64,000 nucleotides of DNA, from the NCBI GenBank assembly GCA_037951105.1, contig JBAMJV010003016.1:40209-104208 (forward strand), given 5' to 3'. Each line of letters starts with the position of its first letter. The stretch's first letter is position 1. The notes under the pieces were generated by a model. The model was given only the letters and a program-made list of their open reading frames with translations, was not told the origin of the DNA and made no database searches. This DNA is from Echinarachnius parma. Lineage: Eukaryota > Echinodermata > Echinoidea > Clypeasteroida > Echinarachniidae. Positions 2,591 to 49,266 of this stretch are shown here, in pieces. The position numbers and the translations under genes are program-made.

Positions 2591-2599
2591 ATATGGCGC

Positions 2600-2800: not shown

Positions 2801-2819
2801 TGTAATTTATGCCCTGGGA

Positions 2820-12682: not shown

Positions 12683-15600
12683 TTTATTTTATTTATTTTT
12701 TATTTTTTTATTTATTTTTTTAATTTTTTTAAAAAATTTATTTTTAAAAATTAATTAATTTATATATTTATTTATTTATTTATTTTTTTTTTGTTTTCCC
12801 CATGTCCCTTCCGGGGCGTCAAATTTATATTTTTTTCACTCTAATTTTAAAAAAAAAATTGTACCACATGAAATTTGCGATATTTGATGTTGCGAGATGG
12901 CGGATGAGCGCTACGTCATTGACGTTCTGGTTTTAATTCTCCACTCGTGGGATGGATTGCCATTGTCAGCTAAAAGCTATTTGTGACCGGTTATAGCAAA
13001 ACCCTGCACTTGTCGGTAACAATCAAAATGTAGATTTTCATACCATTAGAAAGGCCTCATCACAATCTTTCATTTGATACTTTGTTCTAACAAATAGGTC
13101 AATAAACCCACCAAGTGCCTGCAACTGTATATCCGCATCATGCAGAGTTTGTTTGCAGTATCAAGAAGAAGAAGAAGAAGAAGAAGTTTCAATTTAACAT
13201 TCATAAGTCTGTTACACACATGTGAACTTAAAATGCCATTTCTTCAAAACATTCATCTTATTCCTCTACAGCAGTGGCCCAGCCGCCCAGGAGAAGGCAA
13301 CATTTGTAGTATCAGATTAATTGAAATGGCAGCCATTTCTTACTGTCAGAATGTTTTTTGGGTTGTCCGTCCATCCGTCCGTCCGTCCGTACGTACGTCC
13401 GTCCGTCCGTCCGTCCCGTTTTCGTTCTCGCGATATATCAAGAACCAGTTGACGGATCAATTTCAAACTTGGTATGAGTGTACATATTGGGGTGACAATG
13501 ATCTGATTAGATTTTAGGGGTCATGAGGTCAAAGGTCAAGGTCACAGGACTCAATATATATGGGCAATTCCGTATGAGAGAAGGCAAAAACACCACATCT
13601 CAAAGTTGAGCAATCTTCCCTAAATCAAACTGTTATCAATAGAGGAAAACTTGAATTTTAGGAAACTGAAAACCGTTTGTATATAGCTCGATTGGTTTTT
13701 CAAATATTTCTGCTTGAATTGAACAGAAATTTATGACCTTTTATTCATAAATCAGCTTCATTTTGTGAAAATAAAGTGAATCTTTTAATTCAATGACTGT
13801 TTCTGCTCATTTTCTCATATTTTCCATACGATGTTGTAACAAACACAAATTGTAAAGCATGGGCAGTAACTTCATTGCATATTTTTTTGAGAAATTGTTT
13901 TAATCTATGCACATTTGATCGTAATTCCGTTACGATAAAACGATTTAAGTTTTTCTCAATATCTTATTACTTGTTCTTTAGTCATGTCATTGTGAATTCT
14001 CTTCCTTCACCATAGTCCTAAGAACTTCCAACATAATTTTCTGAAATAATGTCACTACTTTTTTCAAAAATGGCGTAACAGTATTAGTAATTCCGTTACG
14101 TAACGGAATTACATGCACATGGTTTGTAAGGTATTGAATGATATTGCTGAAAATAACATTTTTTCTTGTTCTGAATGTAGAAATACACTTTAAATAGCAT
14201 GAACTGTAGCCATGTAGACAATAAGTCATTATACATACATTACATGTACTGTACAATGTTACTTTATCTGACTCATTACCTCACATGCTTCATATTGCAT
14301 CAATGGTGATTTAACTAAATTGATACACGATAGATAATTTCTCTAATTTCTCCATGAACATAATAGAGATGATAATGTTCTATCATTAAATTAGTTTCCA
14401 GCAAGACCCACTTGACTGAAATTATGAAGATGCAGCAGATTCATGTTTGTACTTTAGAAAGGGAAAAACGAAAACAATAACAAAAATTTAAAAATATCCA
14501 GTAATTAGTATGACACTGGTTCTACATTTATTTTCTCACATTAATTTACATTGATGTATTTTAAGATATAAATCATACCTTCAACTTTCAGAAGATTTAA
14601 TATTAATAATTTTGTATGTAGATTTGAATATCATTCATCAGTTAAGGGCTCATAACTCACCATTAATTATGTAAATTTGTATTAAACTGAAGCATATAAA
14701 ATCAAACATAAATACAGAATAGGCTTCAAGATATTCAAAACTATACATAATACAGGCTAAGATATGTTTTATTCATTATCATAAAGTCAGAATTCATTGA
14801 GTGTTCAGTGTGCTTCTGTATGCAGATCAAAGAAGATGTACAAAGTATTTGCATTTTCAAATGGGAATTCCTAAAGGTGTCTTTCATTTTTTGCAATTTG
14901 ATTTTTATATTTTAAATGCCAACTTTTTGTATTTGGATCATACATGTTTATATCCGTACATGTGTATTTCATGAAATGAATGAAAACGCATTCTAAATTG
15001 ATTTGAGAGTAAATTAAGATCACTTTAGGATGAATTTTTAAAAGAATAATTTTAGAATATAACAAGAGTTTATATAACAAATCTTGATTTGTTTGTAATT
15101 CTGTTACGCACACACATAAATTCAGGACTTGTTCTGGTCCTTATATAAGAGTTTAACAATGCATACATTGTTTAACAATGCATACAAATTAACAATGCAT
15201 ACAAATTCTTTACTATAGACTGTACGCAGAAAAATGTAACCAAGAAAATAGAAATTGCATTTTCATGGGTGGATTCATGGGTGGATTTCACAGGCGTAAT
15301 TCCGTTACAGTGACATTCATTTGTCTTAAGGTAATTTCAGAGGTTAAAATAGATCATTTCTGGAAAAAAGATGTACCAAATTCAAGTTTGTAACTTAAAT
15401 GATAAGTTTTTATTACCAATGAAGAATTGTTTGTGGTAGCTTTTGCAGAAAATCATTACAAAGTTAGTGTTGAATAAAAGACCCCTTTCCGTTATGATTG
15501 TATTTTGGTCTCCTGACGCTACAGTGTTATAGATTTGTACCTCTAGTACCCCTGCCAGTTATTAAAGTTGTAAAAACTGTGGAAGTGAAAGGAATTTTAA

Positions 15601-18600
15601 ATATGATTAAGAAAACAGAGCTAAAAATCACTTATATGTCATTCTGTAACAGTGGAATTGCCCATTCACAATGCATTTCCATTCACACAGATTTCCAATA
15701 TTCAGGAAGTTTACGAGGCTTTATAGCATTGAAAGTTGAATTATTTGACCTGTTTGTGATTTTAAATTGTTTAAATGTTTCTTGATATTGATGATGTGCA
15801 GTTCTTTAGCATGTCACATAATGTAGGTACTTTTTTTTTTTTTTTACTTTGGGTTTTTTCACAATTTAACCATTTTTCTTGAAGTAAAGGAAAAATTAAA
15901 AAATGTTGCTATTTTTTACTTCAAATATGGTTATTATTGTCAAAGTATTGATTTTTGAAAAGTATTGAAGCTAAAATGTGAATTTGTTGTTGTTCATGTA
16001 CCGATTTGTGGAAAAGTTGATCCCACTGCTCAAGTTGTGTAATTCCGTTACACACTTTAGTGGACATAGTTTCTAGGATTTTTCTTTCATTTAATTGATG
16101 CAATCCTTTTTAATTTCTTGCCTACTAATATGAAGCTGAAAATAAACCGAAATAAAGCTGGAGTTTAGCAATATTTTTTTCAAATTTCACTCTTATTTGT
16201 ATTTTGGCCATATTTTCATTTGTTTTACACATAACAAGTTCAAAAATTGCTTTACAGATATGTCAAATTATGGTTTATATTCAAGTGCTAGATAGCCTTG
16301 ATGTTTGCATTAGCATGTAAGAAAAGTTTAGTGCAAAATAATTGAGTTTTCCTTGTAACTTTCAGAGATGTAATTCCGTTACAAATTTGTGTAATTCCGT
16401 TACAGTGGTCTTTTTTCAAAAAAGTGAATTTGTGAACTTATCATTGTGTTGTTTATGCACGTACTTGTTCCAAAATGAAGTTGACATTATCAAGATAGAA
16501 AAAATACATAAAATCAGTTTCAAAGTGTCTTATATTTCAGAGAAACTCAACGCAAACTTGTAGCAAAAAAAAAACTCCATTCTCCGGTAATTCCGTTACG
16601 GTCACACATATTGGTCTAGTGTGCAACAACACATGGAAGATATAAAACCATTTCCCTATCATGTTGTAGCCTGGTTACCCGTGCAACTTATATAAGTATC
16701 AAAATTTACTTAAGTCATGAGAATATTGCGCAGGGAATGAAATAATGAGCAAAAAACGTCTCTGAATGTAATTCCGTTATGGTGGAATTGCCCATATACA
16801 AAAATGCCTCGTTCTCGCGATATCTCAAGAACTGGTTGACGGATCAAATTCAAACTTGGTATTAGTGTAGATATTGGGGTGGCAATGATCTGATTAGATT
16901 TTGGGGTTCATGAGGTCAAAGGTCAAGGTCACAGGACTCAATGTATGTGCAAAAATGCCTCGTTCTTGCGATATCTCAAGAACCGGTTGACAGATCAATT
17001 TCAAACTTGGTATGAGTGTACATATCGGGGTGCCACTGATCTGATTAGATTTGGGGGGTCATGAGGTCAAAGGTCAAGGTCACAGGACTCAATACGTATG
17101 CGAAAATGGCTTGTAATGGCAAAATTTCAAGAACTGAATGTTAGATTTCAATCAAACTCGGTACCTGAATGTATCATAAAGAGTCAACGTAGCCATAAAA
17201 TGTTGGGGTCATGAGGTTGAGGTCAAGGTCACGGGACTCATTATACATGCAAAAAAGCTTGTAATGCCAAAATCTCAAGAACTAAATGTCAGATTTCAAT
17301 CAAACTTGGTACCTGAATGTTTTTTAGGGAGCCATCAAAGATTGGGGTCATATGGTCAAGGTCACAGGACTCAAAATATATGAAAAATATTTTTAAAAAT
17401 TAAATCAGTGCGTGTTAATTTGGGCTTGATATTAAAATCGCGTAATAGCGGAGGCATAATTTTCGATTGCGCGCAATCGAAGATCCATCTAGTTTGAAAT
17501 TTATTTATTCTCCACTCATGGGATGGATTGCCCTTGTCAGCTACAAGCTGTTTTTCAAAGGGGTCCAATTGAACGTCAGGGCGGACAAAGCATTGTACTA
17601 TGAAGTCCAATGTTATCTCATTCATCTACAGCAGTGGCCCAGCAGCCCAGGTGAAGGCAACGTTTGTAAATGTCAAATTTATTGAGATGGCAGCCATTTC
17701 TAACTGTAAGGAATGTGCCTAGCTGTCTTCTCATTTTCATAATTTGTATAAATGTTCTGTTTTGTTGTATCATTGTAGTTCTTTTGTCATTGTATTTTAT
17801 GAGATATGAAATAAATTGTCAATTCTATTCAAATTCTTTCTTCATTCAATCCTGCAGGTGAGGAGTACCTTGTGAATCTGATTGACTCCCCTGGTCATGT
17901 GGACTTCTCCAGCGAAGTGTCGACTGCAGTTCGGCTCTGTGAGGGCGCACTTGTGGTTGTAGATGTAGTAGAGGGAGTTTGTCCACAGGTAATTCTTATT
18001 TCATGTCTGTTACAAGGGTTGCATGGAACATGAACTTTTTAAATTTAAATTCTTTAATTCTAGTATTCTCTGCTTCATGGGTAATAATTTAAAGGTATGC
18101 TACAGCTAAAGGGACAAAATGACCTAATTACTAGTAATCAGAGACTAACACTTTATGAATTATTTATGATATTGAGTCTCAAAAACAGTATAGCTAATTT
18201 CAGAATGTATGTCCTTTGAAGACTTATCAATAAAGAGCTGTTACTTGGCATGTACTCCGATAATTTGTGTATGTTGAGTCAAGCATGGGTAAAAGAAAAA
18301 AAAGTTGGGTCCTAAGGGAGATTTAACTACCAGACCAGCAGGCTAAAATACATGACTTGCAGGTTGAGTTTGGAGCTTTGTATATTTTCTTTGATTATTC
18401 TCACCTAAATGATTGTTTAAATTAAGTGATTTCCTAATTTTTTACATGAATCGCATAATTCTAATTGTATAAATTATTTACACAGACACACGTGGTGTTG
18501 CGCCAGGCCTGGCTGGAGCACATAAAACCATGTTTGGTCCTAAACAAGATTGATCGTCTGATCAGCGAGCTGAAGTACACCCCCATGGAGGCCCACCTGC

Positions 18601-27600: not shown

Positions 27601-30600
27601 TAAAATTCATCTTTTCCAAGGTGTAATCAATAGTCGGTGTCACACTTGGGCAAATTATCTAGATAATTTGTATCATGTCTGTCACCCGTCTGTCACATAC
27701 GTAGGTGAATTATCTAGATAACTATTATCTAGATAATTGTGTGAGACACTGGCTACTGTGTAGAAGATGTGGAGGAATGTGAAATGTAAATTATGCTAGT
27801 TTTGCTCAGCAGGAAAGAACTTTTACAACCTTACCTTTCTGTAAACAAACAAGAATGTGATAAAAAGAGAGGATGAAAGTCTAAGAAGAGATAGAGAGGA
27901 AGAAAATAAACATGAATATTATGAAACCATAATTATCTTGGGTGTTTATGTTATTTATTTTAAGTACAAAGACAATGAGTTACATTTCTATAAATAAATG
28001 TGTCCAAAAATAGAATGGTGAAAGAAAGACAATTTAGGAAACATTTTAATTTTATTTTCTGCATGTTTACTAAGATGAATTTTTCCCTTTTAGTTCATTA
28101 AAGAACATCAACTTTCCCCTCATTATTGTTGATTCAGGCAGATGCAAGAGAACGGCGGACAACTTTTATCCAATTCAGAGTGCAACACATACAGTGTACC
28201 CAAGAATTATTTGGACACCTTGAAAAAATCACTTTAATTTAACCCTATCTGTGTCATATAGCACTGTTGCCAATGTCAGGCATATTTATGGTGAATTACA
28301 GTGTCTAGTTGATTGATAATTTTTTAACACTTCCTTCAAAGCTTTCCCAACACGTCATATATCATTTTGAAGCTTACGGTATACTCTTGCGTTTTCTATC
28401 TTTTTTTGATAAATAGCGCCCTCATTGTTGAATAGGGCACCCTCTCTAAGCCATGCAATACAAATTTCAAAATCAAATCTGCACCTGACCACAGCATTTT
28501 ATCATATAATGAGTAACAAAACATAATACATTTTTACATACACATTGTAGCATATACATTTATCTTTCTGGGGAAAAAAAGTTTGTCTTCATATGATGTT
28601 TGATGGCATTTTTATCTCCAAAATTGTGCGTCGATGTCACATATGAAATATTGCGAAAATATGATTATGGCTTTATACAGCATATTTATTCTGCCTTGGA
28701 CCGACTATAGTTAGGTTTTATACAATTTTCTGTAAGATATGTCATGTATTGGTTATATAATTTTGAACGTATATGGCTCTGGTTTTTTTAAAGGTGCCAA
28801 AAGGCTTAATGGCACTTTGAGGGCCTGTATTTTTAAAAACATACTGAACTGAAAACTTATTTTTGTATTTTCTTATAGCATCCACCTAGATTGATCTCCC
28901 ATACCTTAACGAAAATATTTGGACTTCCCTTTATATAGGTCAGATAACCCTAAAGGGCCAATTGTTAACGGAAATTTGTCAACCAAAAATGGGTTCAATT
29001 ATGTTCAGGTATAAAAAAACACTAACAGATTTTTTTTGTTTTTTTATTTGTTGATAATTATGAACAAGTGTGAGTTAAACTTTCAGAAAATTAACGGCGC
29101 TTAATATATAAAGTAATATTTTGACAGTACAATGCCATTAAAATTGGTGTTTCGGACGTTACATCCTCCGTTAACAATTTAACCCCTCATTACCCCTACC
29201 AGTATCATAATTTATTGAAATGATATCAGTATGAAAATTGAACTAACAGTTTCCTCATCATATTGCCTAAAAGGGAAATGACTGATTTCTTAAGCCAGCG
29301 ATTAAAAAAAAAACAAACATGAAATGCACACATGCTCTCATTTTCCGTTAACAATTTTGTAACGTCCGAAACAATATTTCTTTAGAAATAATTTTTAAAA
29401 GGGGGATAACACAAACAATTATTTATCTCAGTTTTGAAGAGACTTGATGTACCTTCCCATCACAGAAAAAAAAAATGCAATAACTTATTGTATTATTTTT
29501 ATATTTTTAAAGTTAACTTTCCGTTAACATTTGTAACATCCGAAACAAATGTAACGTCCGAAACCAAAAATGTAACTTATAAGCTCATAAGTCACAGGAA
29601 AGGGCACATTATATTAATCAATCATCATAATATAAAATAGTATTCATTTTGAAACAAATTTACACATGAATTGGGTAATTAATTGCCAAAACAAATGTTT
29701 GAGATCAACCAATGTAAACAAATGTGTTTCGGACGTTACATGGGGTAATTGTTAACACAAAATTGATATTTTAGTGCATTTATTTTCAAAATGATAATAT
29801 ATGGTTATTATTATTCATTTAGATCATGTAAATGAAACATAATCATCAAAATACATGATGCTTTAATAAGATTTAGATGCTTAGTCTGCCCCAAATCCAC
29901 ATTTTCACCAATTTTTCATCGATTTTTCTCAGCTAATTTGTAACCACTAAAGATTTACAAGACACTTGATATAGTGAATGATATGACTAATCTACTTGGA
30001 ACAATAACCTTTCTTTTGTGGAACTGAAACACTACCTGCTGCAACAACTCCTGTATTTTGTTTACCATTTACAGAATATTTTGTATGGTATTGTGAGCTC
30101 GTTTCGGACGTTACAAAATGGTGTTAACACACATTTTGATTGCACAAAAAATTCAATTTGGAACATTTAAAAAAGTATTATCTACATTTTTCATGATCTA
30201 TATGCTTCCTGCTCCAAGCAAAAGTGTTTAAAAAAATAAATTATCAGTTATTTGTCTCTGGGAAGGAACTTTTATTTATAAAATGTGAGGAATTGCTATT
30301 TTTGCCCCATAATTGTTCATGTTGTAAAGTACACACAGAACTACATGACTGTATACTGATTTTGTTTTTTTGTATCACATCAAATGCATTGATTGCCTTT
30401 ATAATGTTCTATAAGAAACAAATGTTAAGTCTCTGTTTCATTATTCATTTAGTGGAAATATAAACATTTTCATTAACAGAGCCTTTTAGTGGTATACAAA
30501 AGTACAGTATAACTATGCTAAATTTACTCAAAGTTGCAAAACATGTTTTTTTCATATACTTAAACTTGATAAGAAGAAAATAATCTGCGTTGATCCACAT

Positions 30601-33600
30601 GTTTTATTGACACTAATTAAAATGTTAATCATTTGTATTAAAAAAATCCACATGTTAAAACAAAAGTTAGTTTTGAAATACTATATGGCATATGCCATGT
30701 AAACTATAGGTACAGTACATGTACACCAAGATAATTCCTTATCTTATTCTTAAGGCAATTTCCAGAACATTACTGGTTTATGATCAATTACATTTTTGCG
30801 CAAGTCAGCTATGTTTGAAAAATGTAACCATATCTGCTGGAACGAATATATTTTCTTGACCATAACCTTATTTGGTACATACAAGTGTACTGTACATGTG
30901 CCATTATAACTTGAATTTGAGGTTTTGCTAATATCATATTGATCAGTAATGCATTTATGACAGTTATTCTAATTTTCGATAATAGTTTGATAATAGTTTG
31001 ATAAAATTAGTTTGAGCTTCATGTTTTATCAAAATAAGAAAATGGAAAATTCAAATCATATACAATGTATGTCATTGTACAATTTACATATACTTTTATC
31101 TTTTGTAAAATGATGAAGGAAACTCTGGAAAGTCACATCGATCATCCTTTGACTGTATATTAATAACAGTTTCTAATTGCATGTAATATTTGTACAAAAT
31201 CTTGGATTTTGTCTATCAATATGGACTTCATTCACTATCCCTTTCGTTGGGAGTTCAATTAATGCACATATTTATGGGTTTTGCTTGCAAAATCGTGCAA
31301 ACAAAGCGAGTTAAGATATGTTTTGAAGTGATGTTAACACCATGTAACGTCCGAAACAAAATAGGGAAGCAACTTTACTACAATAAATTACAGATCACAA
31401 TTCTCAAATTGTAGTTATTGTAGCACTAGGTACACAGTACTTCATACATGTAATTTCACTAAAACCCTTAAAATTGTCTCTACTTTGGAGATCTGAACAT
31501 ATAATTATATATAAATCAAGTTTACATGTACTGTACTGTACTATAATGTCTATGGTTGATAGAAGACCCCTTTCTGTGCTATGAAGTTAATTTGACCATT
31601 TCAAAGAAGAATTTGGATAGATTTACATCTAAACATATATTTTCTGTATTTAAATATTCCAAAATAGCAAAGATTTAAACCACAACTGGTCATAGAAGTG
31701 TAAAAAAAAGGGTAAATGTTAACAATGTGTAACGTCCGAAACACATACAAGAATCAAATTTGAATTTTATTTGCAAGTGTCTTGCTCCAATTTTATATCA
31801 TGTAAATATGTCCTATCATGTATTGTTTCCATACAATAAGTTTGAACCAACAACAGTAAAAAAAATTTGCATTACAAAAACTTCAAATTGCAAAATTCAA
31901 ATTTTAAGGCTATTTTTCACTTTAAAATGACCTAAAAACTAAAATTTAAGAAACAGAAGCCCCGAAAATGGCACACATGATGTCAGAAGCCCACTTTAAT
32001 TATTTGTATTATTTGTAATGCCATTTGGAATAGTAGGATTTTAGTATGGCAATGTGAAAATATATCATATTTTTCTTTTAAATATAGGAAATCCTAAATG
32101 TCCATAGATATTTCGCAGAATTGGGGATAGATTAAGCCCAGATATCTATATTTCACGAAAATATAAGTTGTGTCAATGTTAAAAAAACATGTTTGAAGTT
32201 AGTTCACTTAATTTCAATTTTGACCATGTTGGTTGACACATTTGGCATCTTAAAAAAAACCAGTGCCATATTATATTCGTACATTTTCAAATCAGTTTTA
32301 TGTAGAGCGCCCTCATTGTAATAATTTTTAGGGATAAAAGGTACAATTTTCTGGTGTACGCAAAGGCACAATACCAACAAAATCTTCCACGACCACGACT
32401 TTGACTTCGATCAATTTGAGTGGGAATAAAAAATTAATTGTGAATGATCTGTAGTCTGCAGATAGAAAATAATTATCAATAATCACACTCCCAGTCAATT
32501 ATTTGGTTTTTCTTCTAGTGATATTATGGGGAAGTTACTGAGCAAAACACAAAATGATAACAATAATGTTGGCGAAACTTCCAGCTTCGATCAACACTCA
32601 ACGGGAATCCCCGACATCGCGCGCCTGGCCAGTCGGCCTGGCGTCAACTTAGCTTACTGCCTAGCGCCCTAGCGGCCTAGCTAGATGTACGAGAATCCCA
32701 CGAAAATATCGTATTATTCAGACAATTTTATTTCTGTGTCCGTGTCTGTATGGTGTTGACGTTTGATATCAATGTAGTAATCATCAGTTACCAAAAATAT
32801 CTTGATAAATGCCGATTCTAGGTTGATAAATGGCTCCTCGTCCTCCGTTGAAACACTCATTCTTGGTTCCGAGAACTTCCAAAGTTAGCTCAAAATCACT
32901 GTAAATCATGTACTGAAAATACCGCTTGACAATAGCGACCACGTTGGGACATGCGAGTAGCGCATTGCACGTAGCGCATACGTCACTTATATACACGTAC
33001 TCATCACTCATACACACACGTATCGATACAACCACTTCCGGGCTGATTCACGTAACTAAAAAACAGATAAAAACTAAACCAAACAAGGGGAAAAAGAAAC
33101 AATCATTGTGATTGGACAACAAAAATAGAGACTTTATCTTTTACATCATCCATTGCCATACTTCTCGACCAATCACAGTTGAGCTTACAGCTCATGACCT
33201 GACTCAGTAAGCATGCAAAAGCTTGTCAAAGTGTGGGCCGATTATATCGGCCCAAACGTTCTGGTGGCGGAACCTGGGCCGATTAAATCGGCCCGTGACA
33301 CTGGGAGGGTTAAATGATGCTAGAACAAATTTTGAAAAAAATGTTTGGTAAAAAGCTGCCTAAAATTCATTGTACATGTATGTGTTTATTAGATCTTGCT
33401 TTGTTGAAATCAAGATAAAATATAAGACCATTTTTGAAAAATTATCAAAATAGTTAGTTTCCTATTTGTCAGGGTGTCCAAATAATTGTTGGTTACACTG
33501 TACATGGCAGTGTTGACTGTCTTTATCTGCTTATGGGATTAATAATAACAGTAAATCTTACAAAATAACAAAGTTATTACAGTACTTGGTATAAAACAGG

Positions 33601-36600
33601 ACATTTTAACATGATACATATATGCCTACACTACAGATGCAAGAAAATGGCGGACAACTTTCAGCCAACTCCGAGTGCAGCAAGTACATAGTGGAGTTCA
33701 CAGTTGAGAGTCTATATCTACTGATGGGAAGGGAGCTGGAATTGTTGGACGAAGTGCCTGCAGGAAACATACTGGGTAAATCAATTAAATGTCTTCATTG
33801 TTGATCATTCTTAGAAGTCAAACAGCCAAAAGGGTTCTGCTTCCCTGTATAAAGTATATGTATACTTCAGTTACAAACACATTCCATTATGAGAAGTTAA
33901 ATTTATATTGCACTTCCTTGAATAAAATATAAATATCAACAGGTTCAGTTTTGAGAAGTCAAGCCAAAAAAGTTGGACTTCCTTGCATAAATTTCATACA
34001 TGTACATCAATTATAAACAAATACATTTGTCTACAAAACCTTTATTTTGACTATACATGACACAATTCTTACGGTTATCTAAACTTTGTCTATTTCTAGT
34101 CAGTTTTCTCTATATGTTTGAATTTAAAAAAATGAAAATCACATTTTTTTTTATGAGACAATTTACTTGTAGGAATCAGTAAATAATTGTCAAAGACATT
34201 TTAAAGTGGATTATGTCTATTAGATAAAGACATACATGTAAGTCACATTTGATTGAATTGATGTTTACTTTATTCCACTTTCAGGCATTGGAGGACTAGG
34301 AGATTTAGTCCTGAAGTCAGCGACTGTTTCTAGCACATATGCGTGCCCAGCATTTACCGACATGACCTTTGCTGCACCACCCATTGTTCGAGTTGCTATC
34401 GAACCCAAGCATTTATGTAAGTACATAGAAAATATACTTTTTTTTTTCTTAGCTACTCTGGTTGAAGAATATGACTTAAAGGGTACCACCAACTAAAAAA
34501 TAATATTCTTATAAATGAGTAAGTAGTCCATTCCACCAGCAAGTTCAGAAAAATATGTTTCTAAACAAATTATATAAATGGAAAACGTCTCACTATACTA
34601 AAGCATGTGGTCAAGGGGTCTGCAGACGAAGACTACTTTTTGTCTAGGACGAACACATTGTCCCTGATTCTATCGTCTCCTAACGTTCGCTTGAATAGAA
34701 TTGACGCACTCGCAGACGTTTGGCGCATACGGAACCATGAGGCCATATTGGTTCTGTAAGTGGTGGTAATTAATTGTGTTGTTTATGAATTACACTACCC
34801 TTTTGCGGAATGTTCGGCATCTATTTAATATCACACAAAAGTACCAAAACATATAATTATGTGTAACTCTTTAAGTAAATTTTGAAATAATTATTGACTG
34901 TCTCTAGAATTACTTTGATAAGTTGATGCACCAAAATGTTATGTTATTGAGTAATGTTGTATGTTTACTTCAAATTACCTGTATTTGCGTGAATAAACTA
35001 CAAAGTGGAAGTTGTAGAAAAGAAGAAGCATAACAGTTTTGTCAATGCGCCAAAACAGGCTTTTTTTTTTTTTTGAGCGGGAAATATTTTCCTCCTTGAA
35101 ATTATTTCCTTTATTAGCTGACATGCAGGTGCTGATGAAACTATGTATTATTTATTTTCTTCAAAGTTGAACAAGTTTTTAAGAAATAACCAATAACTTT
35201 TCCCTCTATTATCCTTTGAAATTGTCTCCGTTATTAGCCGACATGCAAGCGCTGATGAAAGGCATGAGGCTGTTGAATCAGGCTGACCCCTGTGTGGAGG
35301 TGTTTGTGCAAGAGTCTGGGGAGCATGTAATAGTTGCGGCTGGTGAAGTTCATCTGGAAAGATGCCTTGACGATCTCAGAAAGAGGTAGACTTATTTCTT
35401 ACAAGTTTTGTCAAATACAATACAGTAAAACCTTGTTATAATTAGAATGTTGGGACCATGAAAATTAGCTTTTATCAGTTATGTTATATCAGTTATCATG
35501 TTATATCAGTTATCACGTTATATCAGTTATCACGTTATATCAGTAATGTTATATCAGTAATGTTATATCAGTTATCATGTTATATCAGTTATCATGTTTT
35601 ATCATGGTATACAAACTATAAAGAGCTTGAACCAGCAAAATAACCTTGTTATAAGAGGATATTGTTATGTTAAAATTAGGTTCTACTGAAATTTTTAAAA
35701 CCATTAAACTAACAGTGTTTGATAGAAATGCAGTGATTCTGTTTTATTTTTTTTACCTGTCCGGAAGTACTATGTATGCAAATAAATTTGTCTATTGATA
35801 GTTGATACAAATCATCAACTCTTCAGCACATTTTCTACATCTCATGGGTGGACTTTGTAAAATCCTTTCTTTTGAAATAACTCTGTTTTCACATTTCTTG
35901 AATGACTGCATTTTCTTGTATTCCATTTGAAAATATAAAAAAACACTTCAATTGTTACAAACACCTTTATCAGGGAAAGATTTGGTTTGAAAGATATATG
36001 ACAAATCATGCTTATTTTTAATTTTTTTTATAGGTTTGCCAAAGTTGAGATTGATGTCTCACCTCCAATCATCCCATTCCGAGAGACCATCATCCTGCGT
36101 CCCAAGGTTGACATGGTCAACGAGGTCATCGACGACATCAATCACATCCACAGGAAGCCGCAATCCCTGGACATCGACGATGAGGGGATCCAGATCTTCA
36201 AGAACGGGCTGCTGGAGATAAAGACGGCCAATAAGGCGTGCACGTTTCACATCAGGGCGGTGCCTCTACCTGAAGCGGTCACCGGCATCCTGGAGGAAAA
36301 TGCAGAGCTGATCAGAATATTGGATCACCACGTGTCTACCATTCTGTCAGGGAAGCCAGGCACCCAGCAGGCACAAAGTGCCTCTCTTGCCGCAACAACC
36401 CTCATCAGCATCCGTGAACTAAGGACAAAGTTGGAAGAAGCATTCAAGGATGCTGGGAAAAAGTGGAGGGGTTGTCTGGACCAGATCTGGGCGTTTGGAC
36501 CCCGCCGCTGCGGACCCAACATCCTGGTGAACAGGACTGAGGACTACAAGCGAGTTTCTGTCTGGAGCTGCCTAGAGGATGAGAACTCAACAGATGTCAC

Positions 36601-40266: not shown

Positions 40267-40822
40267 GGGATAGTTGAGTTCTGGTATAAAAGAGAGTACA
40301 GTTTTGGTCAAACTGAATTTTAGTAAGCAAAACCTGCACCATTACATTACAAACTAATAGTTATAACTCCATCATGCTAAAAAGGCATACAACATTACAA
40401 ATGACTATATAGTAAAAAGCCTGTTATCGTTCAAAAAGAGCCGTAAAAACTCAAGAGGGCGCTCTCTAAACGCTCATCGGTTTTAACCGTTTTAAATAAA
40501 ATATTGTGCATGTGATGTTTTGTTGAAATAGTGATTAGATAGAGAGATAATCAACAACTATCTAAAAAGCAATTTTATACATTTTTGAAAAGCATTCCAA
40601 AAAAAATTTACGGCTGGTTCAAAATTGTTGAATATTATTGTGGGGCCCCACATTTATTACAAATGGCAATGTTTATGGATATTTCAGCCATTTCTGAACC
40701 GATTTTGATCAAATAAAGTATATTCTGTCATTAAAATTGTATGCTCTTTCGAATTTGACACTCAGTTTTTCATTATCTCACAAAAAAATTATTTTGTGTA
40801 GCGCCCTCTATACCAAAACTTA
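40267..40822 (+). mobile_element. TTAA MITE family, copy 1 (diverged)
   Basis: It starts GGGATAGTTGAGTTCTGGTA and ends CTATACCAAAACTTAAG. Shared internal words with the other copies: TACAGTTTT.GT.AAACTGAA, ACCATTACATTACAAACTAA, GAGGGCGCTCTCTAAAC, ACGGCTGGTTCAAAATT, GATTTTGATCAAA. It is the most diverged of four copies; no clean TTAA is visible at the right end. Confidence 0.75.
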
Positions 40823-40995
40823 AGGCAATCCATGCAAATGTTAAGCTACCGTATGCTTGGTATTTCTTCCCCATATAATTATGTTTCTCTATTCAGGATA
40901 TTTTGCTTTGTTTGTCAGGCACGCTAAATACTGAAATAACCACCCTTCCATTATAGAGCACAGAAGTAATGAAAAACTTGTTTGCTATAACATAT

Positions 40996-41291
40996 TAATG
41001 GTTCTTATCAACTTGTCCTTTGATTTGGGGTTTTGACATTGGGTAGGAGCTGTAATTGCCTCCTCAGCAATTACTAGGTCACACATGTCTGACTTGACTG
41101 ACATTGTTTAGAACCATTACCAATGGCAGTGATATTTGTGATATCTTATGTTTGTTTGTAGTAATGGTTCCTAACAGCCAATGCCCTTGGATTTGGGCTT
41201 TCAAAAGTGGGTTGGAGCTGGTCCCAATTGCCTTCTCAGCAATCAGAAGGTCACACATTTATGGCTTGCCTGACATTGTTTAGAACCATTA
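40996..41291. repeat. Two tandem small TIR units (TAATGGTTC..GAACCATTA)
   Basis: Units 40996-41119 and 41162-41291 each start TAATGGTTC and end GAACCATTA and share internal text (AATTGCCT.CTCAGCAAT, GGTCACACAT, CTGACATTGTTTAGAACC). These are two copies of a MITE of about 125 bp. Confidence 0.75.
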
Positions 41292-41373
41292 CTCATGACA
41301 ATATATGTCATATGAATAGCTGTGGCACCACACTTTGGTACTCGTTACACATTCATGGTGGTATCCTTCCTCC

Positions 41374-41490
41374 AATGGCGTAGCATGGTCGGACTGATTT
41401 AGGGGGGGGGGCACACATTATGTATTTCTTTGCTTTTTCAAATTATTGGGGGGCACGTGTCCCCCCCCCCCCCCCCCCCCCATGCAATTT
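41374..41490. repeat. Poly-G/C dispersed repeat, copy 2
   Basis: AATGGCGTAGCATGGTCGGA then CTGATT, a G run and GGCACAC. It closes with GGGGGGCACGTGTCCCC and a C run of about 20. Same family as 5788 and 45232. Confidence 0.7.
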
Positions 41491-41590
41491 TTAAATTTAA
41501 TTTAAACTCATATATCTACACTGCAATTTGTATTGATTGAAAAGGTTGCTATTTGTGTATGCGAGCACTGGTTTATTTATATATTCAAAT

Positions 41591-41761
41591 ACAGTATAAC
41601 GTGTGTACGGTAACCACCTCGGGGAAACAAGAAAAGTGGCCACTGTAGATAGGTGACCTCTATAGACAGTTCCTTATTGCTTTTCTCTCAGGGGAACACT
41701 TTTGGTGGCTGCTATTGGCAAGTTTGCTTTAGACAGGTGGCCACCAAGACAGGTTTGACTG
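41591..41761. mobile_element. 170-bp MITE with TA-flanked CAGT ends
   Basis: TACAGTATAACGTGTGTACG..AACCACC at the left is matched by GGTGGCCACC.AGACAGGTTT, GACTGTA at the right. Imperfect, but typical of small Tc1-type MITEs. Confidence 0.55.
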
Positions 41762-42083
41762 TACATGCAAAGTCAAAATTATAAACACACATTTTAAAAT
41801 TATTTATAGAAGATGTAGGCAGCTCAGAAGTCAAAACTGGGTTATATAACTGGGTTATTTCATAGAGAATTTCAACAACAAAGTATTGGAAATTATACTT
41901 GCAAATACAATTTGAAAGAACTGCTCACATTGTGTGAGAATAAATTATATATTCACATTGATTTTAAATGTTCTGTTGTGTATTTCTTTCACAGTGAAGT
42001 TATTGTCTTTGCATACTTGAGAAAGCTTCATTTTATATGTGTTTGTGCTGTGTGTTTGTAGACGGTAGCATACATGTTCTTAA

Positions 42084-42456
42084 AGGGATCTAGTAAATTT
42101 GTTGACATGTGCAAAGGGTGATAAATGGTTGATTCAATGTATATTGTTTTGATCCAATATTTCCACTGAGTAATGTGTGAAAATCATGTTAAATGGATGT
42201 TATATGGCCGAGTAGTGAGCGAAAATGCCGAGTGATATTCACTAACTCATTTCACTGACTTTGTACACGGTTTACACTATCCAGTGGATAGTTTAACATC
42301 CGGACACTTCAATCGTAAATATCTTTTTAATGAAAGGGACATTTAAATCAAACCTGTAACCTGTCCCATGCTCCTAATTTTAATACAACGAGGTATGAGA
42401 GAACCGCTAGAGTTCCAAGTAAGTTTTGAGGATTTGGACAATATTACTAGATCCCT
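42084..42456. mobile_element. 373-bp TTAA-flanked MITE, separate family
   Basis: TTAA (42080-42083) then AGGGATCTAGTAA; the right end reads TTACTAGATCCCT then TTAA (42457-42460). The interior is unrelated to the 40.3-kb family, though the first bases AGGGAT are shared. Confidence 0.8.
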
Positions 42457-42459
42457 TTA

Positions 42460-43145
42460 ATTTCATTAAAAATAACCTTTCATCCAACATTGTACAGTAT
42501 TGGATGAGTATTGTATTGCATGGAAAACAAACTCTGTTACACACATAATTTCTATTTCATATAATTTTATTAGATAAAATATATTCTGATATTCAAGCAG
42601 TAGTAAGGTTTGTAAGGTTCGGCATCGCGATACTCTAAACTCGTCTTTGGACTAAATTTTGTAATGACCAGTTGCTGTCCTGACATGATCCCTGTCTGGA
42701 CAGGATGAAGTAAAATTATGTATTGAAGCAGAAACATTCATGACGACCTGACTCATTGAACACATCATTGCCTTTGCTACTTCGCTTTAGACATCAAAGT
42801 TTCTTTTTAATATTCATTGTGTATTGCAAATAAGTTTCATTCACAATTTGTTTTTCTTTTTTCAAATTCCTTTTTTTTGGGGCCAGGTGGGTTCCTTTTT
42901 TCTGTTTTGCTCGGTTGGCAACTCTGCTGATACCATGTTCTTGGAAATGATGTACTTCAAATGGGTCCAGAGATGTCTAGATTGTGATTTCCTGTATTTT
43001 GGCCTGTGTGGGAGGTGTTCATCCACGCACTCGAGTCTCCAGACTATCCTTTACTTCATTGTGTGTCGTGGATGTTGATTCATCTGCATGGCACAGATCT
43101 TCAAAATGGTGGTCCCCTGGAAGTTGAACGGTGTTGATAGGACAT
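42460..43145 (-). other. Possible 3' UTR of the minus-strand MGCVKSKF gene
   Basis: A 3' untranslated exon of the left paralog begins at 43146 (minus, after CTGCAG) and matches the corresponding exon of the right paralog through CTTTGGACCCATTT-like text near 42970. A minus-strand AATAAA at 42571-42566 is a candidate poly(A) signal. The end of the transcript is not determinable. Confidence 0.4.
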
Positions 43146-43393
43146 CCTGCAGAAGTATCAAAGAAAATAAACACAGGGTCATCTATTGTATAACAAAACT
43201 ATTAACAATGTTCATCTTTGATTGGTTTACACTAAATGTTAGCTATCAAAAGTTTGACCTTTTAGATTTACGTGTTTAGAGTGAGAAAAATAATGTTCAG
43301 GGGGAAAATGTCTGATTAATTGGTTAAACCAACATTGAACTGTTGATTACCTTGTACCAGCACTGGCGCTGCTTCGAGGCTTTGGGGCATAGT

Positions 43394-46300
43394 TCATTCC
43401 ATTCTTCTTGGCAACGCCCAGCGCTCTTCGTCGCCATCCTCTTTGGCGGATGTGTCTTCTGGAATGCTGCTTTCTTGAAGCCTTCTCGCCACCACATTTC
43501 CTTCTACGAACGTCGCCACATCTTCCATTATCTCCGACAGGAAAACCCTCGCTGCCCTCTCATTCACATTAGCGGGGCAAACAGAGCATGGCGCATGTGC
43601 GTCTCCGGCTTCAGATGACGGTCGCTGCTGATGTGATGCCTGCTTAGCATCCTCATCAATATATGTGTACCCGGTCTCGGGCGATTGTGGCTGATTGGTT
43701 GTTGGCTGCTCATCAGCATCAACATCACATGAGCTTTCCTTCATTTCATCTGGATGGATATCAGTGCACACCTCATCCGAGTCTTCTCCTTCAGATGATG
43801 AATGCTTCAGGTTATATAGACGGGTGTCTTTGGAGGGCTGGTGCTCTGGATCTCCGAGGCCTGACGAAATATTTTGGCGACGTGCCGATGCAACGGCCTG
43901 GAAAATTGTAAATGAGGGGAGTTAAGCCATAATGTTCTTTTGATGGATAAAATACATGCACGTCCTGGTATGGAGATAACTTTATGATTTTTTTTTACAA
44001 AATGCTAACATTCGTATATGACTGTCAGGTATATAATTGCATACATCGTCTTGCATTTGCTAACTTAAAACCGAACTCTAGCTGCTTTATGTTAAAGTTA
44101 CATCACTAAATAAAAATACTAACAAGATAAAAACAAGTGTAATAACAATTTCTTTTCTACCCAAGTTAAAAAAAGTGGAAGATTAACACGAATTTGATGA
44201 CCTTTATATCCAGAGGAAAGCATGCAGAATGTCAGTAATACCTTGATTATGTCGAGCTTCATCTCCTCATCTTGGTTGCTAGGAAACATGATGGTGTATG
44301 CCCCGCCATTGGGAGCAACCCTTAAACCCGTCACGAAATAGGCTGGCACGTCACTAACCACTTCGGGGCTAGACAACTGGGCATCAAGCTCTGTAAAATT
44401 TAAGAGATTTGTTTTAGTGTTTAGTTAGAACATTGTTTTTACACAGAGTATTTGTGGGGCCACAAATGGGTCAAAATATAATAACGCCAGTTTTATAACT
44501 TAATGCACAAGACCAATAATAAACCATAGCCTACTACATCCCAATAATAAAAAATACAAATTTGTAAATAATACAACATAATACAAATACAAACTTGTAA
44601 ATTATACAACTCTCAGACACAAATTTGGAGGCAAATTCCTTCAGATATCTCTGATATTTTGCCAAAAACAATTACACAAATTAGTTTTTATCTTAAATTA
44701 TTACCAATTTCCATCATTTGAAGACGGGAGCTAGCTGATGGCATTGTCATTCTCCATTCTTCATCGCTCTCCTCTTCATTCTCCTCCTCGTCATTTGAAG
44801 AGAGTTCGACGTCAGCATCATAGCCGAACTCCTTCGCATCATTGACGGTTTCGACGTTGTCCTCTTCACAGGAGGAGCCTAGTGAAGAGACGTCGTTTAT
44901 GATCGGGTATTTTACGATCACGAGTGGTGGTATCTCGATGACCGCGGTACCCACGATCTCGCCGTCGAGTCTGTTGATGATGCAGACTGTTTGGATGCCG
45001 ATCGTATCCTGCGGGAACATAAAAAATACATTAAAAATGTTAATCTTATTTTTGGTATTCATTATCTTGAACATGGCATTAGTTCCGCATTCTTCCAAAG
45101 ATATCTATATATATATTTTTTTTAAATTACGCATACAACAAGTAGAGATATACTACAGGAGGATTGGCAATTTATGTTATCTGACAAATATCAAAATCAT
45201 ATTGGGACAGAGAAAGAATAAAGTTGAGACTCCATGACGGAGCGCGGTCGGACTGATTGGGGGCATACTCTAGAGTATGTATTACTTTATTTTGTCCAAA
45301 ATGTCCCCCAATATGTTTTTATTGTTTTGTCTTCAAATTATTGGGGTTGGGGATAAGTGCCCCCTCCCCATGCCCCATATTACCCGATAGCAACGCCACT
45401 GATTAAAAAGGATCTCTATAAACAGAGAGAAAATAATCTCACAAAATAGCTATTTTGACAGCATTATACCAGTCAATGAAATATAAGTATATTATACTCA
45501 CATTGATGGCATCATAAACGGGATCTATAGCTGGCATGTCTGGGACCGGTGACTTGGGTGTTGGTTTGTCATCAACAGCCTCCTCCACCAACTGGTCGCG
45601 CTCAGCTGGTTTAACGGGATCCCAGAAGGATGGGTCCGTTATTCCAAATTCCTGCATCAACTTCTTGCGAAGTTTCTTATCAGGACACTTTGAATATAAA
45701 AGTAAGCGAAACGGAAAATAATGGTGGGGCAAAAACTCTCAGGCCCTTTCAGGTTACTTGGAATTATAACACAGAATCATATATTTAAGTAATTTCACGC
45801 TTTATAATTCATCTTTATTGCTATATTGGTGCTTTGTTGATATATTAAAAATATACCTAAATGATAACAATAACAAATAAATAGTTTAGTAGGCCTAATG
45901 AAGGCGATATCACCCGATTATATCCAAAGAAGTGCATGACTGTATTCCGTATTTACTAGTTATCTTCATAATATAAAGTTGCAAAATATCAACAGAACAG
46001 ACAGGGAATCATTACTACCATTTCAAGAAAGTCACTCTCAAAAATTGTAAATGAATAGAGAACATAATCCAAAATCTGAAGTAATAACATGTTTTCCTAC
46101 GTATATTGGTTAACTTCTTTAATACATTTGTGTATTGAATAGACTAAAACAATAATTATATGATAATAACTTGGGATATGAACTATGCAGTGATATGTAT
46201 TACTATAACATCGCTTTGGCGTTAGTTTAGTTTATGATTTTGATTACTTTTTTAACATCAAGGCTATTATTATAATACATGATAATTTTCAATCAACATT

Positions 46301-47051
46301 TCGATTGGTTTAAAGGGATAGTTAAGTTCTGGTAAGGAGAGTACAGTTTTAGTGAAACTGAATTTTAGTAACCAAAACCTGCATCATTACATTACAAACT
46401 AATAGTTATAACTAGAGAGGAACACAAAATTACAAATGACGTAGTAAAGATCATGTTATCATTAAAAAAGAGCCGTTAAAACATAAGAGGGCGCTCTCTA
46501 AACACTAATCGGTTTCAACCATTTTGAATAAAATATTGTGCATGTGATGCTTTGTTGAAATAGTGATTAGATAGAGAAATAACCAACAACTATTTAAATA
46601 CCTATTTTGTAACTTTTTGAAAAGAGGAAGCATTTTTTTGAATTTTTAACGGCTGGTTCAAAATTCTCTAATAAACCCGGGACCCCGGGTTTATTACAAA
46701 TTGTTATATTTATGGATATTTCAGCCGTTTCTGAACCGATTTTGATCAAACAAAGATGATTTTATTGTTTAAATATTATGCTCTTTCAAATTTTATACTC
46801 AGTTTTTCATTACCTCACAAACCAATTAAGTAGTCTAGCGCCCTCTCTACCAAAACTCAACTTTCTCTTTAAAATGCAAATGTAGTTTTATAATGGTTAA
46901 TGGTTCATTATGTCTAATAATCCTTTTCTGCATGCGAGATAAATTTTGTTATAAGTTTTACCTTCTTCCGGAAGCGGGATTCTCTCCAATTAATGGCATC
47001 GGATGCAAATCCATCCTCTTTCTTGAGAAATTTAGATTTTACGCATCCCAT
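43394..47051 (-). CDS. Left paralog: N-myristoylated acidic protein, 410 aa, 5 coding exons
   Basis: Family not recognised. Coding exons on the minus strand: 47051-46962, 45687-45502, 45008-44705, 44390-44242, 43897-43394; phases chain to 410 residues. It starts MGCVKSKF: Gly2 and Cys3 with following Lys/Ser are the usual signals for N-myristoylation and palmitoylation, so a membrane-tethered cytosolic protein is likely. Exon 2 encodes CPDKKLRKKLMQEFG and FWDPVKPAERD; exon 3 a hydrophobic block (IGIQTVCIINRLDGEIVGTA) followed by an acidic run; exon 4 AYFVTGLRVAPNGGAYTIMF; exon 5 a Ser/Gln-rich region, then ERAARVFLSEIMEDVATFVE, a predicted amphipathic helix. A 3' UTR intron follows the stop (exon 5 continues to 43351). 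It mirrors the gene at 49483-53253, but keeps about 45 residues in exon 5 that the other lost. A PKA-anchoring role is hypothesised in the findings. Confidence 0.8.
45232..45412. repeat. Poly-G/C dispersed repeat, copy 3
   Basis: Begins CATGACGGAGCGCGGTCGGA and ends ATAGCAACGCCACTG; interior ATGTCCCCCAATATG and GTGCCCCCTCCCCATGCCCC. It lies in intron 2 of the left paralog. The ends GGAGCGC and GCAACGCCACTG suggest inverted terminal symmetry. Confidence 0.65.
46314..46868 (+). mobile_element. TTAA MITE family, copy 2
   Basis: Flanked by TTAA (46310-46313, 46869-46872). Starts AGGGATAGTTAAGTTCTGG, ends GGTAG..GCGCCCTCTCTACC, AAAACTCAACTTTCTCT in mirror. It contains a GGGACCCCGGGTTTATT insert-like step in the middle. 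Located in intron 1 of the left paralog, in inverted orientation to copy 3. Confidence 0.85.
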
Positions 47052-47268
47052 TTTTAGATATGATTTAAAGATATCAACAATACTTAGAAAGTATGAGAGA
47101 TAACTTTGATCAAGAACAGTAGCTGTCAGCAAGAGCTAGAAACTGTATGAATTGTATCATAGTCGAGACTCGTATGCCGTTGCTAAGGATTTTAGTGCGC
47201 GCAATAATGACAATGAACGCGCTTTTAATTATGACGTATTGCTACGTAAACAATGGCAGTTTGAGGCA
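47049..47268 (-). promoter_or_regulatory. Conserved 5' flank/UTR of left paralog
   Basis: Reading on the minus strand, TTTACGTAGCAATACGTCAT, AATTAAAAGCGCGTTCATT, TTAGCAACGG, TTTCTAGCTCTTGCT, CTGTTCTTGAT and TCATATCTAAAA precede ATG, matching the right paralog's flank at 49283-49482 in the same order. TACGTCA is a CRE-like half site. The last part probably lies in a 5' UTR. Confidence 0.6.
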
Positions 47269-47435
47269 TATTTCTATGGAGTCATCATACTTCTTTAGGT
47301 AAATGCAGGGGGGGGGGGGGTTCAAAATACGGGATTTTAAAAACAAATACCAATATTCTTGGCTTTCGAGTAAAAACTACCTCATTTTCGAACAGAATTA
47401 TCTCATATTCTGGCAAAACCGGGACAAAACCCTTA

Positions 47436-48050
47436 TAACTATGTCCCAGAAAGAATGGTACAGTCGGACAATATTTATGATGGTAAGATAAAATATACAT
47501 ATTTGATACCATATTTGACCTGTTTCCGTTCAGCGGATCCCGAATTATGTCGGGTTGATACGAATATACAAAAACCCATTTTGGGCTGATTTTCGTATTG
47601 GCACGGGAAATGTTGATGGGCATTCATTGCTCAAATTTGGTCTTCTCACATTTAAGATTTTGTAAAGACTCTGTTGATTGAACAATAGGCATAACATCCA
47701 TTAAAATAGAATTCACGTAATGGTAACATTATATTTAAGCATTACATTTAGCCAAATTAATAATTACTGAATATATTACATTCTACATTTATACTCTGAA
47801 AATAACATTCGGGTAAGTCATGTAATGCACAGAACATAAAATTGGCACAAAGTGAATTTCGCTTTACTGCAAACAAACGACTATATCTCACGACTGACGA
47901 ACCCAATTAAGTTTTTAAAAACCCAAACATCAGGAAGCCTGATTATTTGTCTCTACTATGATACCAAAAATGTATATTTTGGGATTACAGTAACCTTTAT
48001 ACCTTAAATACATATTTTCTGACTGTACCATTCTTTCTGGGACATACTGT
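47436..48050. mobile_element. About 610-bp Tc1/mariner-type MITE between the paralogs
   Basis: TATGTCCCAGAAAGAATGGT, ACAGTC at 47440-47465 is matched in reverse complement at 48020-48046. The outer bases TACAGTATGTCCCAG are clean only at the right end. No transposase. Confidence 0.7.
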
Positions 48051-48327
48051 ATAGGGGCAAACATATCACACATTCGGGTAAAATCAGCTCACATTATTTC
48101 TAATTTGAAGACACCTATAGGCAAAGGGAGGGTATCATTCACGCAAACGAGCTAAACCTTGTATTAAGAAGCGCGCGGAACGTCACCCGGGTAGAAGACG
48201 TGATGGCCGTGAACAAAAAACACAGCGCGCGCCGATACTATGTGTCGCCCCAGCTGTTCGCGTGATGAGGGAGGTGCGGTTGTTATGGTAACCTACCCGA
48301 GTGAGGATTTTGTGGATTTTAGATTAA
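48051..48327. other. Spacer, GC-rich patch
   Basis: AGCGCGCGGAACGTCACCCG and AGCGCGCGCCGATA text at 48170-48235 is GC-rich; no gene or repeat recognised. Confidence 0.4.
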
Positions 48328-48882: not shown

Positions 48883-49266
48883 TTAAGAATAGGTCCGAAG
48901 GCTTGCTGCGTGTTTTACGACCTGACCCTCTACTGTATTTTATCCACTAGTCGCTCGGTTAACATCGAGGTGAGGTTTATTTTTCCCAATTAAGAAGGGG
49001 TTTAAGTTAAAAGATATCGTTTAAATCTGCAAGCTTGAAAGGCCACTATGAGTGGAAAGATGTTGATATTCCTTGTATCCCATTCCACAAGATTATGTTA
49101 TCTTATCATGTATTTACGTCATGCTATAAATATTTTTTCTTAAATCGTAATGTGTACGAGATACGATTATGAGTGCTTTTTGCTCGAAGATGGGTATTTA
49201 AAAAAAACTCTCAGATTTGCATCCTCTGTAATTATGGTCTTTGCGCTGCATGTACCCAAATCAGTA

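Follow-up and report, generated by a model that had tools for sequence, protein, structure and literature searches.

The locus at 28775-32267 of the 64,000-nt stretch of DNA analysed here (the window) raises the question of what might read a 14-nt word, GTAACGTCCGAAAC, which recurs on both strands of non-coding DNA. A sequence-only reading of this DNA had proposed binding sites for a protein supplied in trans, located in a 5-kb element. In the following paragraphs we describe the transposon family that carries the words, here called F1, and its relation to other families of the same genome, in which the F1 motif appears as a member of a series of motifs, each specific to its family, that stand at conserved positions, a relation that goes beyond the earlier reading. 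With a probability of roughly 0.58, we take the 14-mers to be binding sites on the arms of a non-autonomous DNA transposon, recognized by a dimeric, sequence-specific protein which the transposon's mobilisation system would supply in trans.

Seven exact copies of the 14-mer and one copy with a single mismatch lie between 29149 and 31742, on both strands, as had been noticed before. When up to three mismatches are allowed, the shuffled window yields a mean of 2.71 matches and reaches eight matches in 1 of 100 shuffles, against a real set of which seven of eight are exact. Genome-wide, which here and below refers to the whole 1.2-Gb genome, exact matches to the word number 1617 (818+799), compared to 9 (3+6) for the reversed control word. 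The association with GTTAAC on one side of the motif also holds: in all seven F1 modules it precedes the motif on the 5' side at a distance of 4-11 nt, on the same strand, and the one at 29523 serves two sites, since the site at 29551 follows that at 29533 by 18 bp. An eighth GTTAAC, at 28964, has no accompanying 14-mer. The sites are as follows.

29149-29162, minus strand: F1 motif site 1, GTTAAC at 29170-29175
29359-29372, plus strand: F1 motif site 2, GTTAAC at 29347-29352
29533-29546, plus strand: F1 motif site 3, one mismatch, GTTAAC at 29523-29528
29551-29564, plus strand: F1 motif site 4, 18 bp behind site 3
29726-29739, minus strand: F1 motif site 5, GTTAAC at 29751-29756
30101-30114, minus strand: F1 motif site 6, GTTAAC at 30123-30128
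31344-31357, plus strand: F1 motif site 7, GTTAAC at 31333-31338
31729-31742, plus strand: F1 motif site 8, GTTAAC at 31718-31723

The unit that carries these sites is delimited by terminal inverted repeats (TIRs) and a target-site duplication (TSD), and the sites lie 375, 585, 759, 777, 952 and 1327 from its left end and 526 and 911 from its right end.

28775-32267: F1, a 3493-bp non-coding TIR element with the 14-mers, defined by end-to-end copy alignment, TIRs, a 4-bp TSD and an empty site in copy L050
28775-28801, plus strand: left TIR, GGCTCTGGTTTTTTTAAAGGTGCCAAA
32241-32267, minus strand: right TIR, GGCACTGGTTTTTTTAAAGATGCCAAA read inward in most copies, the window copy differing by one base
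28771-28774: left TSD, ATAT
32268-32271: right TSD, ATAT

Alignment with other genomic copies extends over 28775-32267 and ends there, and in L050 the window segments 28239-28774 and 32268-33314 are contiguous, with a 4-bp overlap, thereby providing the empty site. In a TSD survey of 39 sequences, five without a pair of ends were set aside, and 31 of the remaining 34 carry an identical 4-bp TSD (ATAT in 15, TTAT in 7, others in 9; TTAA in 2 of the 31). By its TIRs, its fixed-length TSD and its empty site, F1 is a cut-and-paste TIR DNA transposon. The TIR pattern, with up to three mismatches, has 452 matches in the genome and none for the reversed control, which suggests roughly 225 F1 elements. 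The 5-kb element of the sequence-only reading is real and spans 28243-33309, with the TTAA and CCCT/AGGG ends that had been pointed out; these ends, however, belong to an older piggyBac-like element which F1 interrupts, whereas the motif-bearing unit is the F1 element inside it, with GGC..GCC ends.

F1 is a young family. The left 187 bp are 100% identical at all 40 scored places (of 255 candidates, the window's own included), and 33 of 35 copies differ from the column majority by 0.96-2.47%, the others being L035 (4.45%) and L019 (9.6%). As most copies lie within 1-2.5% of the majority, the surroundings of the words are not decayed, contrary to the earlier picture of preserved words amid decayed sequence, and neither is the DNA otherwise free of CpG: the window copy of F1 contains 36 CpG, of which 15 fall within 14-mers. 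The non-coding nature of the element was recognized correctly. The longest stop-to-stop frames comprise 88 amino acids in the window copy and 73-99 amino acids in 12 plain copies (L033-L044), so that a translated frame does not account for the conservation; among 20 frames from F1, F2, F3 and inserts adjacent to them, none matched Pfam above the cut-off, with two hits below threshold, and no Rfam family matched 28192-33498 at the gathering threshold.

The youth of the family is of specific importance for one rival explanation, according to which the arrays are relics, their motifs having been placed once in an ancestor, with too little time to diverge and no current function. Low variation between copies alone proves little, because F1 is young, and the tests which F1 copies allow are of moderate strength. 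On a tree of 33 of the 35 aligned copies (L019 and L029 were left out as diverged or partial), the non-CpG columns of seven motif sites, a set that leaves out the site at 29533 (mostly GTAACATCCGAAAC), show 1 change in 69 sites compared to 868 in 3345 elsewhere; for CpG columns the values are 11 in 29 and 37 in 37. An equally low number of changes was reached by random 14-column blocks in 483 of 20000 seven-block sets and in 381 of 20000 eight-block sets. Thirteen of the 33 tree copies had been found through intact motifs and the 20 others through perfect TIRs. In 20 TIR-chosen copies (L029 included), differences per cell amount to 0.0041 in motif columns and 0.0171 elsewhere, an approximately fourfold difference; motif singletons number 2 versus 8.9 expected at non-CpG positions (P 0.0065) and 6 versus 11.95 expected at CpG positions (P 0.047). 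Without L035, the same set gives 2 versus 6.5 (P 0.043) and 5 versus 11.1 (P 0.035), respectively. Constraint on the F1 motif, as had been proposed, is present, with a statistical strength that is moderate from these copies alone. The motif columns are thus less variable than other columns of the very same copies, which speaks against relics, and two further observations described below bear on the same point.

Nested inserts pointed the way to other large non-coding TIR families, each with its own motif; six families or subfamilies are considered here, namely F2, F2b, F3, F3b, F4 and F5. Five of them were read in sequence (F2b, F3, F3b and F4 in one copy each, F2 in three, one of them partial), and F5 is known by positions only. 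The F2 copies are L052, part of L051 and window 13562-16793; the element measures 3.2 kb and has the TSD ATAT or ATTT.

13562-16793, minus strand: F2, 3232 bp, TIR GGGCAATTCC, TSD ATAT, ten GTAACRGAATTAC sites (nine exact, one with one mismatch), 97.8% identical to L052
16587-16599, minus strand: F2 motif site, position 195 from the left end
16391-16403, minus strand: F2 motif site, position 391 from the left end
16370-16382, minus strand: F2 motif site, position 412 from the left end
14100-14112, plus strand: F2 motif site, 539 from the right end
14087-14099, minus strand: F2 motif site, 526 from the right end
13921-13933, minus strand: F2 motif site, 360 from the right end
F2b, in L027: 3.9 kb, nine GTAACGGAATTAC sites, with G before each
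F3, in L050: 2.0 kb, six GTAACGCCGTGAC sites
F3b, in L028: 1.8 kb, seven GTAACAGCGTGAC sites
F4, around F1 in L009: TIR GGGCAGGTCC, TSD ACTA, seven GTGACGTACGGGAC sites, one with a mismatch

One of the ends of F4 is present twice (L009 1693 and 2405), with ACTA before both; the nearer one was taken, giving a length of 1679 bp and not 2391. TSDs are 4 bp long in F1, F2, F2b, F3, F3b and F4, those of single copies outside F1 being ATAT, ATTT, ATTT, TATA and ACTA, and that of the F3 copy ACCT.

The motifs of these families share a common form, a GTNAC-N3/4-NNNAC dyad, and can be written as facing half sites: GTAAC-GTCC-GAAAC in F1, GTAAC-GGA-ATTAC in F2, GTAAC-GCC-GTGAC in F3, GTAAC-AGC-GTGAC in F3b and GTGAC-GTAC-GGGAC in F4. 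In every family read, the main spelling contains at least one CpG within CpG-poor DNA. Genome-wide counts are 3096 versus 13 for the control with CGTAACRGAATTAC, 7972 versus 2554 with GTAACNNNGTGAC, and 3671 versus 176 with GTRACGTMCGRRAC, a pattern that takes in F1 and F4. The dyad pattern placed 3 nt behind a GGGCANNTCC end matches the genome 3954 times and its reversed form 8 times; among the first 100 of these 3954 matches, 68 came with their letters and comprise 15 spellings, 7 of which occur at least three times. One of these seven recurrent spellings, GTTACAGAATGAC (7 places), is internal in F2 at C135 (L052 2146) and does not mark an end.

The dyad form, together with the GTTAAC beside each F1 module, could be likened to the sites of host transcription factors, and in the copies examined no coding partner was found. 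Both points would suit the idea that a host protein acting in transcription, replication or chromatin recognizes the motifs and is exploited by the elements, with no element-encoded partner. However, a search with GTAACGTCCGAAACNK for the motif outside F1, which tests the second base, returned 5 places versus 4 for the control, and four of these five are F1 copies. Exact F1 motifs outside the family are thus at chance level, and as far as this second-base test shows, the motif seems nearly confined to one TIR family; apart from one of the five places, the genome-wide excess over chance described above belongs to a single repeat family, and a random frequency of the motif is not what was found. 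Moreover, a separate specificity of 13-14 bp for each transposon family is hardly expected of a host factor, an explanation which we therefore consider improbable.

The link between the families extends to the places of their sites, measured here as distances from the ends.

F2: 14, 195, 391 and 412 from the left; 360, 526 and 539 from the right
F2b: 14, 192, 392 and 412 from the left; 360, 515, 531 and 548 from the right
F3: 194, 391 and 405 from the left (site at 14 altered); 351, 517 and 537 from the right
F3b: 14, 194, 391 and 405 from the left; 360, 526 and 546 from the right
F4: 25, 194 and 391 from the left; 169, 334, 503 and 523 from the right (nearer end)

F2 and F2b have additional sites between the arms. 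In the families with GGGCA..TCC ends, the sites keep their place, on the left almost to the base and on the right within about 25 bp, and this occurs where blastn detects no similarity of F2 to F3 or F3b and, for F4, only short stretches shared with F3 and F3b. Random placements agree within 1 bp as well as F3b and F2 do in 6 of 200000 cases for the left arm and in 111 of 200000 for the right arm; for the left arm, the corresponding values are 232 of 200000 for F4 and F2 and 9 of 200000 for F5 and F2. Since positions persist between families that are otherwise unrecognisable in sequence, mere relics become harder to sustain.

The layout of F5, whose motif GTAACGGAAGGAC occurs 8935 times genome-wide versus 44 for the control, was predicted before the last genome search. 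The 100 places listed form 16 clusters, the last one incomplete. Eight of these 16 clusters have the predicted left block, with distances of 0, 179-180, 376-377 and 390-391 counted from their first site; the right spacing in the same eight is 164 bp (predicted about 166). The prediction was largely borne out. Three more sites, at about 601, 780 and 978, look like a repeat of the left arm.

The clearest view of a change in motif is provided by F3 and F3b, which are 13% diverged outside their sites. At the six sites that are intact in both, motif positions 6 and 7 differ in all 12 cells (GC versus AG) and the other positions in none of 66; random blocks gave two such consistent offsets in 0 of 100000 draws and a single one in 3 of 100000. 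Directly before the motif, the six shared sites have T or C in F3, and in F3b five of them have G and one has A. The first 100 listed F3/F3b places comprise 8 F3 arrays (48 sites), 7 F3b arrays (45 sites) and 7 single places; none of the 15 arrays is mixed, with only those sites visible that fit the searched pattern. Three of the 48 sites in F3 arrays are spelled ACC, which is compatible with CpG decay. In addition, the left and right sites of the F3b array at C61:114304-118051 are about 2.3 kb farther apart than those of most listed F3b copies; the extra sequence might represent a nested insert, or the array might belong to a coding relative. A consistent difference at two positions, over a 13% background, is the second of the observations announced above, and together they leave the relic explanation disfavoured and, in our view, very improbable.

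The places of the sites are kept, their spelling is common within a family and they are replaced together; in this they act like a single functional set, which calls for one protein able to read all of them. We suggest that this protein may be the transposase, or else a DNA-binding subunit with an accessory role comparable to that of TNPA in Spm/En, either of which would explain the kept distances to the ends. On several sites at fixed distances from the ends, the protein might build up an end complex that is asymmetric, with the motif serving as an address by which the copies to be mobilised would be chosen. In related families the geometry of the sites would be kept while the motif differs, and whenever the specificity of the protein changes, all sites of a lineage would be replaced together. 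The use proposed by the sequence-only reading, binding of a trans-acting protein, thus remains the likeliest one, and its interpretation is partly supported overall.

A different role for a protein encoded by transposons is that of an anti-silencing factor such as VANC, in which case the motifs would be its targets, the element would be kept unmethylated and active, and motif and protein would change together. VANDAL elements have family-specific short non-coding motifs that differ between related families (PMC5735166, PMC10398659). Such a factor would explain sites deep in the element and main spellings with at least one CpG in CpG-poor DNA, but not the distances, which agree nearly to the base across families. 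VANC motifs are described as evolving by the formation of tandem repeats (PMC5735166), whereas the sites described here are mostly single or in close pairs, with unrelated flanks and fixed distances to the ends, a partial repeat of the left arm being found in F5 only. No VANC-like gene was seen in the copies read, and no VANC-profile search was made. Targets of an anti-silencing factor are therefore unlikely, though to be taken seriously.

Several points weigh against binding sites for a protein of the mobilisation system. Copies with examined frames contain no transposase or DNA-binding gene, and no autonomous partner, for which the sequence-only reading had proposed to look, was found among the copies examined; no genome-wide search with transposase profiles was made. 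The seven-site block test in F1 is modest (483 of 20000), the tree test is biased because 13 of the 33 copies were found through intact motifs, the singleton P weakens to 0.043 without the diverged L035, and the count of TIR changes (2 in 54) lends no support because 20 copies were listed for perfect TIRs. F1 lies off the 14/194/391 grid, so that what connects it to the other families is the form of the motif, the 4-bp TSD and a single distance in common. For F4, the right-arm distances depend on the choice between two possible ends; the GGGCA families have a site near the left end (14 or 25) and, except for F4, none within 330 bp of the right end. In F5, the predicted minus-strand pair is absent among the matches listed, and the other 8 of the 16 listed clusters are shorter or different, lacking the full left block. 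Furthermore, F2 sites lie up to about 1.5 kb from the nearer end, beyond any subterminal repeats known to us.

Among described systems, the CACTA elements (Spm/En, Tam1, Tgm) resemble these families in that, close to conserved TIRs, they bear asymmetric non-coding arrays in which a short family-specific motif is repeated in direct and inverted orientation, and their subterminal motifs differ between subfamilies, which is thought to parallel the diversity of the binding proteins (PMC2613891). A repeated family-specific motif of this kind is present here. In contrast to CACTA, the TIRs start with GGC/GGGC, the TSD has 4 bp and not 3, the sites are few, far apart and at fixed distances, and the copies examined contain no tnp2/TNPA gene; moreover, the host is a 1.2-Gb genome, and the genes of the window look animal-like by reading of their sequence. 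The CAC..GTG termini that are a hallmark of Chapaev (CMC) (PMC4079192) are replaced by GGC..GCC or GGGCA..TGCCC. The VANDAL/VANC system of Arabidopsis shares motif arrays in non-coding parts which are different in related families and change together (PMC5735166, PMC10398659), there through tandem repeats (PMC5735166); here, sites are dispersed with kept places and differing sequence, and tandem multiplication is limited to the partial arm repeat of F5. Sola2 elements have AT-rich 4-bp TSDs such as ATAT, AAAT and ATTT and short imperfect TIRs (PMC3627910), a likeness seen in the AT-rich F1 TSDs (ATAT 15, TTAT 7, others 9 of 31), with ACCT in the F3 copy; the excerpt of PMC3627910 does not mention motif arrays for Sola2, and here no Sola2 transposase was seen, though no search aimed at one was made. 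Galileo, of the P superfamily, has several THAP-domain sites in its long TIRs, so that a domain of the transposase itself has more than one place to bind outside the tips (PMC3688188). It differs in these long TIRs and its superfamily; the arms described here are not inverted copies of each other. The TTAA target and CCC..GGG ends of piggyBac are absent from F1 and present in the older element around it; likewise, a TA TSD as in Tc1/mariner occurs only at the outer element 28192-33500 and not in the F1-F4 families. Miniature inverted-repeat transposable elements are non-coding TIR elements, mostly under 500 bp (PMC10741241); the families here are equally non-coding, at 1.7-3.9 kb. Taken together, this excludes CAC ends as well as TTAA and TA targets for F1, and Sola2-like TSDs fit.

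As CACTA subfamilies and VANDAL motifs show related change, the principle of changing motif sets is known. The literature searched (titles and the starts of abstracts) yielded no description of dispersed sites with kept places and differing spelling, GGC/GGGC ends and a 4-bp TSD, and no occurrence of the exact 14-mer; GGGCAATTCC occurs in the text of 38 papers, and none of the 15 titles listed among them concerns transposons. More tentatively, and with somewhat less than even odds, these families might represent a group of eukaryotic DNA transposons that has so far gone undescribed and that uses an orthogonal system of addresses. The geometry of the array would be frozen across families, in the left arm almost to the base, and the 13-14 bp motif would be replaced in concert, in place and without tandem duplication at each change of protein specificity. 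Dozens of families could coexist in a genome, each responding to its own protein alone. For transposons, silencers and replicons, it is an open general question how a binding protein and its many dispersed sites change specificity jointly. Here, a single genome offers the sister pair F3 and F3b, whose six or seven sites correspond and are spelled in two ways, along with several more distant families whose site maps are almost alike. Direct tests thereby become possible of the order in which the steps took place, of the protein and of what mismatched sites cost; the genome also provides a simple sequence signature for finding an element group not placed in a known superfamily.

The surroundings of F1 are themselves nested.

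28243-33309: older piggyBac-like non-coding element with CCCT..AGGG ends, TTAA at 28239-28242 and 33310-33313, interrupted by F1; recognized by its inverted arms and an uninterrupted copy in L050
28192-33500: TA-flanked element with Tc1/mariner-like ends around F1 and the piggyBac-like element; inverted arms 28190-28227 and 33465-33502

The TTAA-flanked L050 copy of the piggyBac-like element (2436-3997, 1.57 kb) lacks F1; the window copy is interrupted by F1, and the L050 copy is itself inserted into F1. An exon-like stretch at 33634-33688 has a second copy at 28139-28193, 84% identical over 55 nt, and it is this copy at 28139 that the TA-flanked element splits. Two GGGCAATTCC families, F3 in L050 (5076-7081) and F2 in L051 (6559-6568), are found at the same place of the F1 TIR, AAAG[A/G]T, which hints that such families may prefer the ends of other elements as targets.

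Longer F1-related sequences were considered as autonomous or ancestral forms and rejected. In the long TIR-to-TIR candidates L025-L028 (6.7-8.2 kb) and L029-L032 (3.9-4.9 kb), F1 is enlarged by inserts of other DNA; a large part of the F1 middle is missing from L029, and L032 has a small internal repeat. By reading of its frames, the insert in L026 is a reverse transcriptase element resembling long interspersed nuclear elements, the only long coding match in the copies examined. L050, taken as a longer ancestor of F1, is F1 carrying two inserts, F3 and the piggyBac-like element, and L051, taken as a sister family with the F1 TIR, is an F2 element adjoining an F1 TIR.

Elsewhere in the window, 58461-63318 forms a near-perfect palindrome with arms of 1486 and 433 nt (100%), whose frames read like those of a Penelope-type element, in two inverted copies, with a reverse transcriptase whose C-terminal part resembles GIY-YIG. 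Several direct and inverted repeats of 80-560 nt, about 78-95% alike, occupy 40289-53261 and probably represent local duplication or nested elements. Short CGTCC tandem arrays are located at 12301-12381 and 13344-13440.

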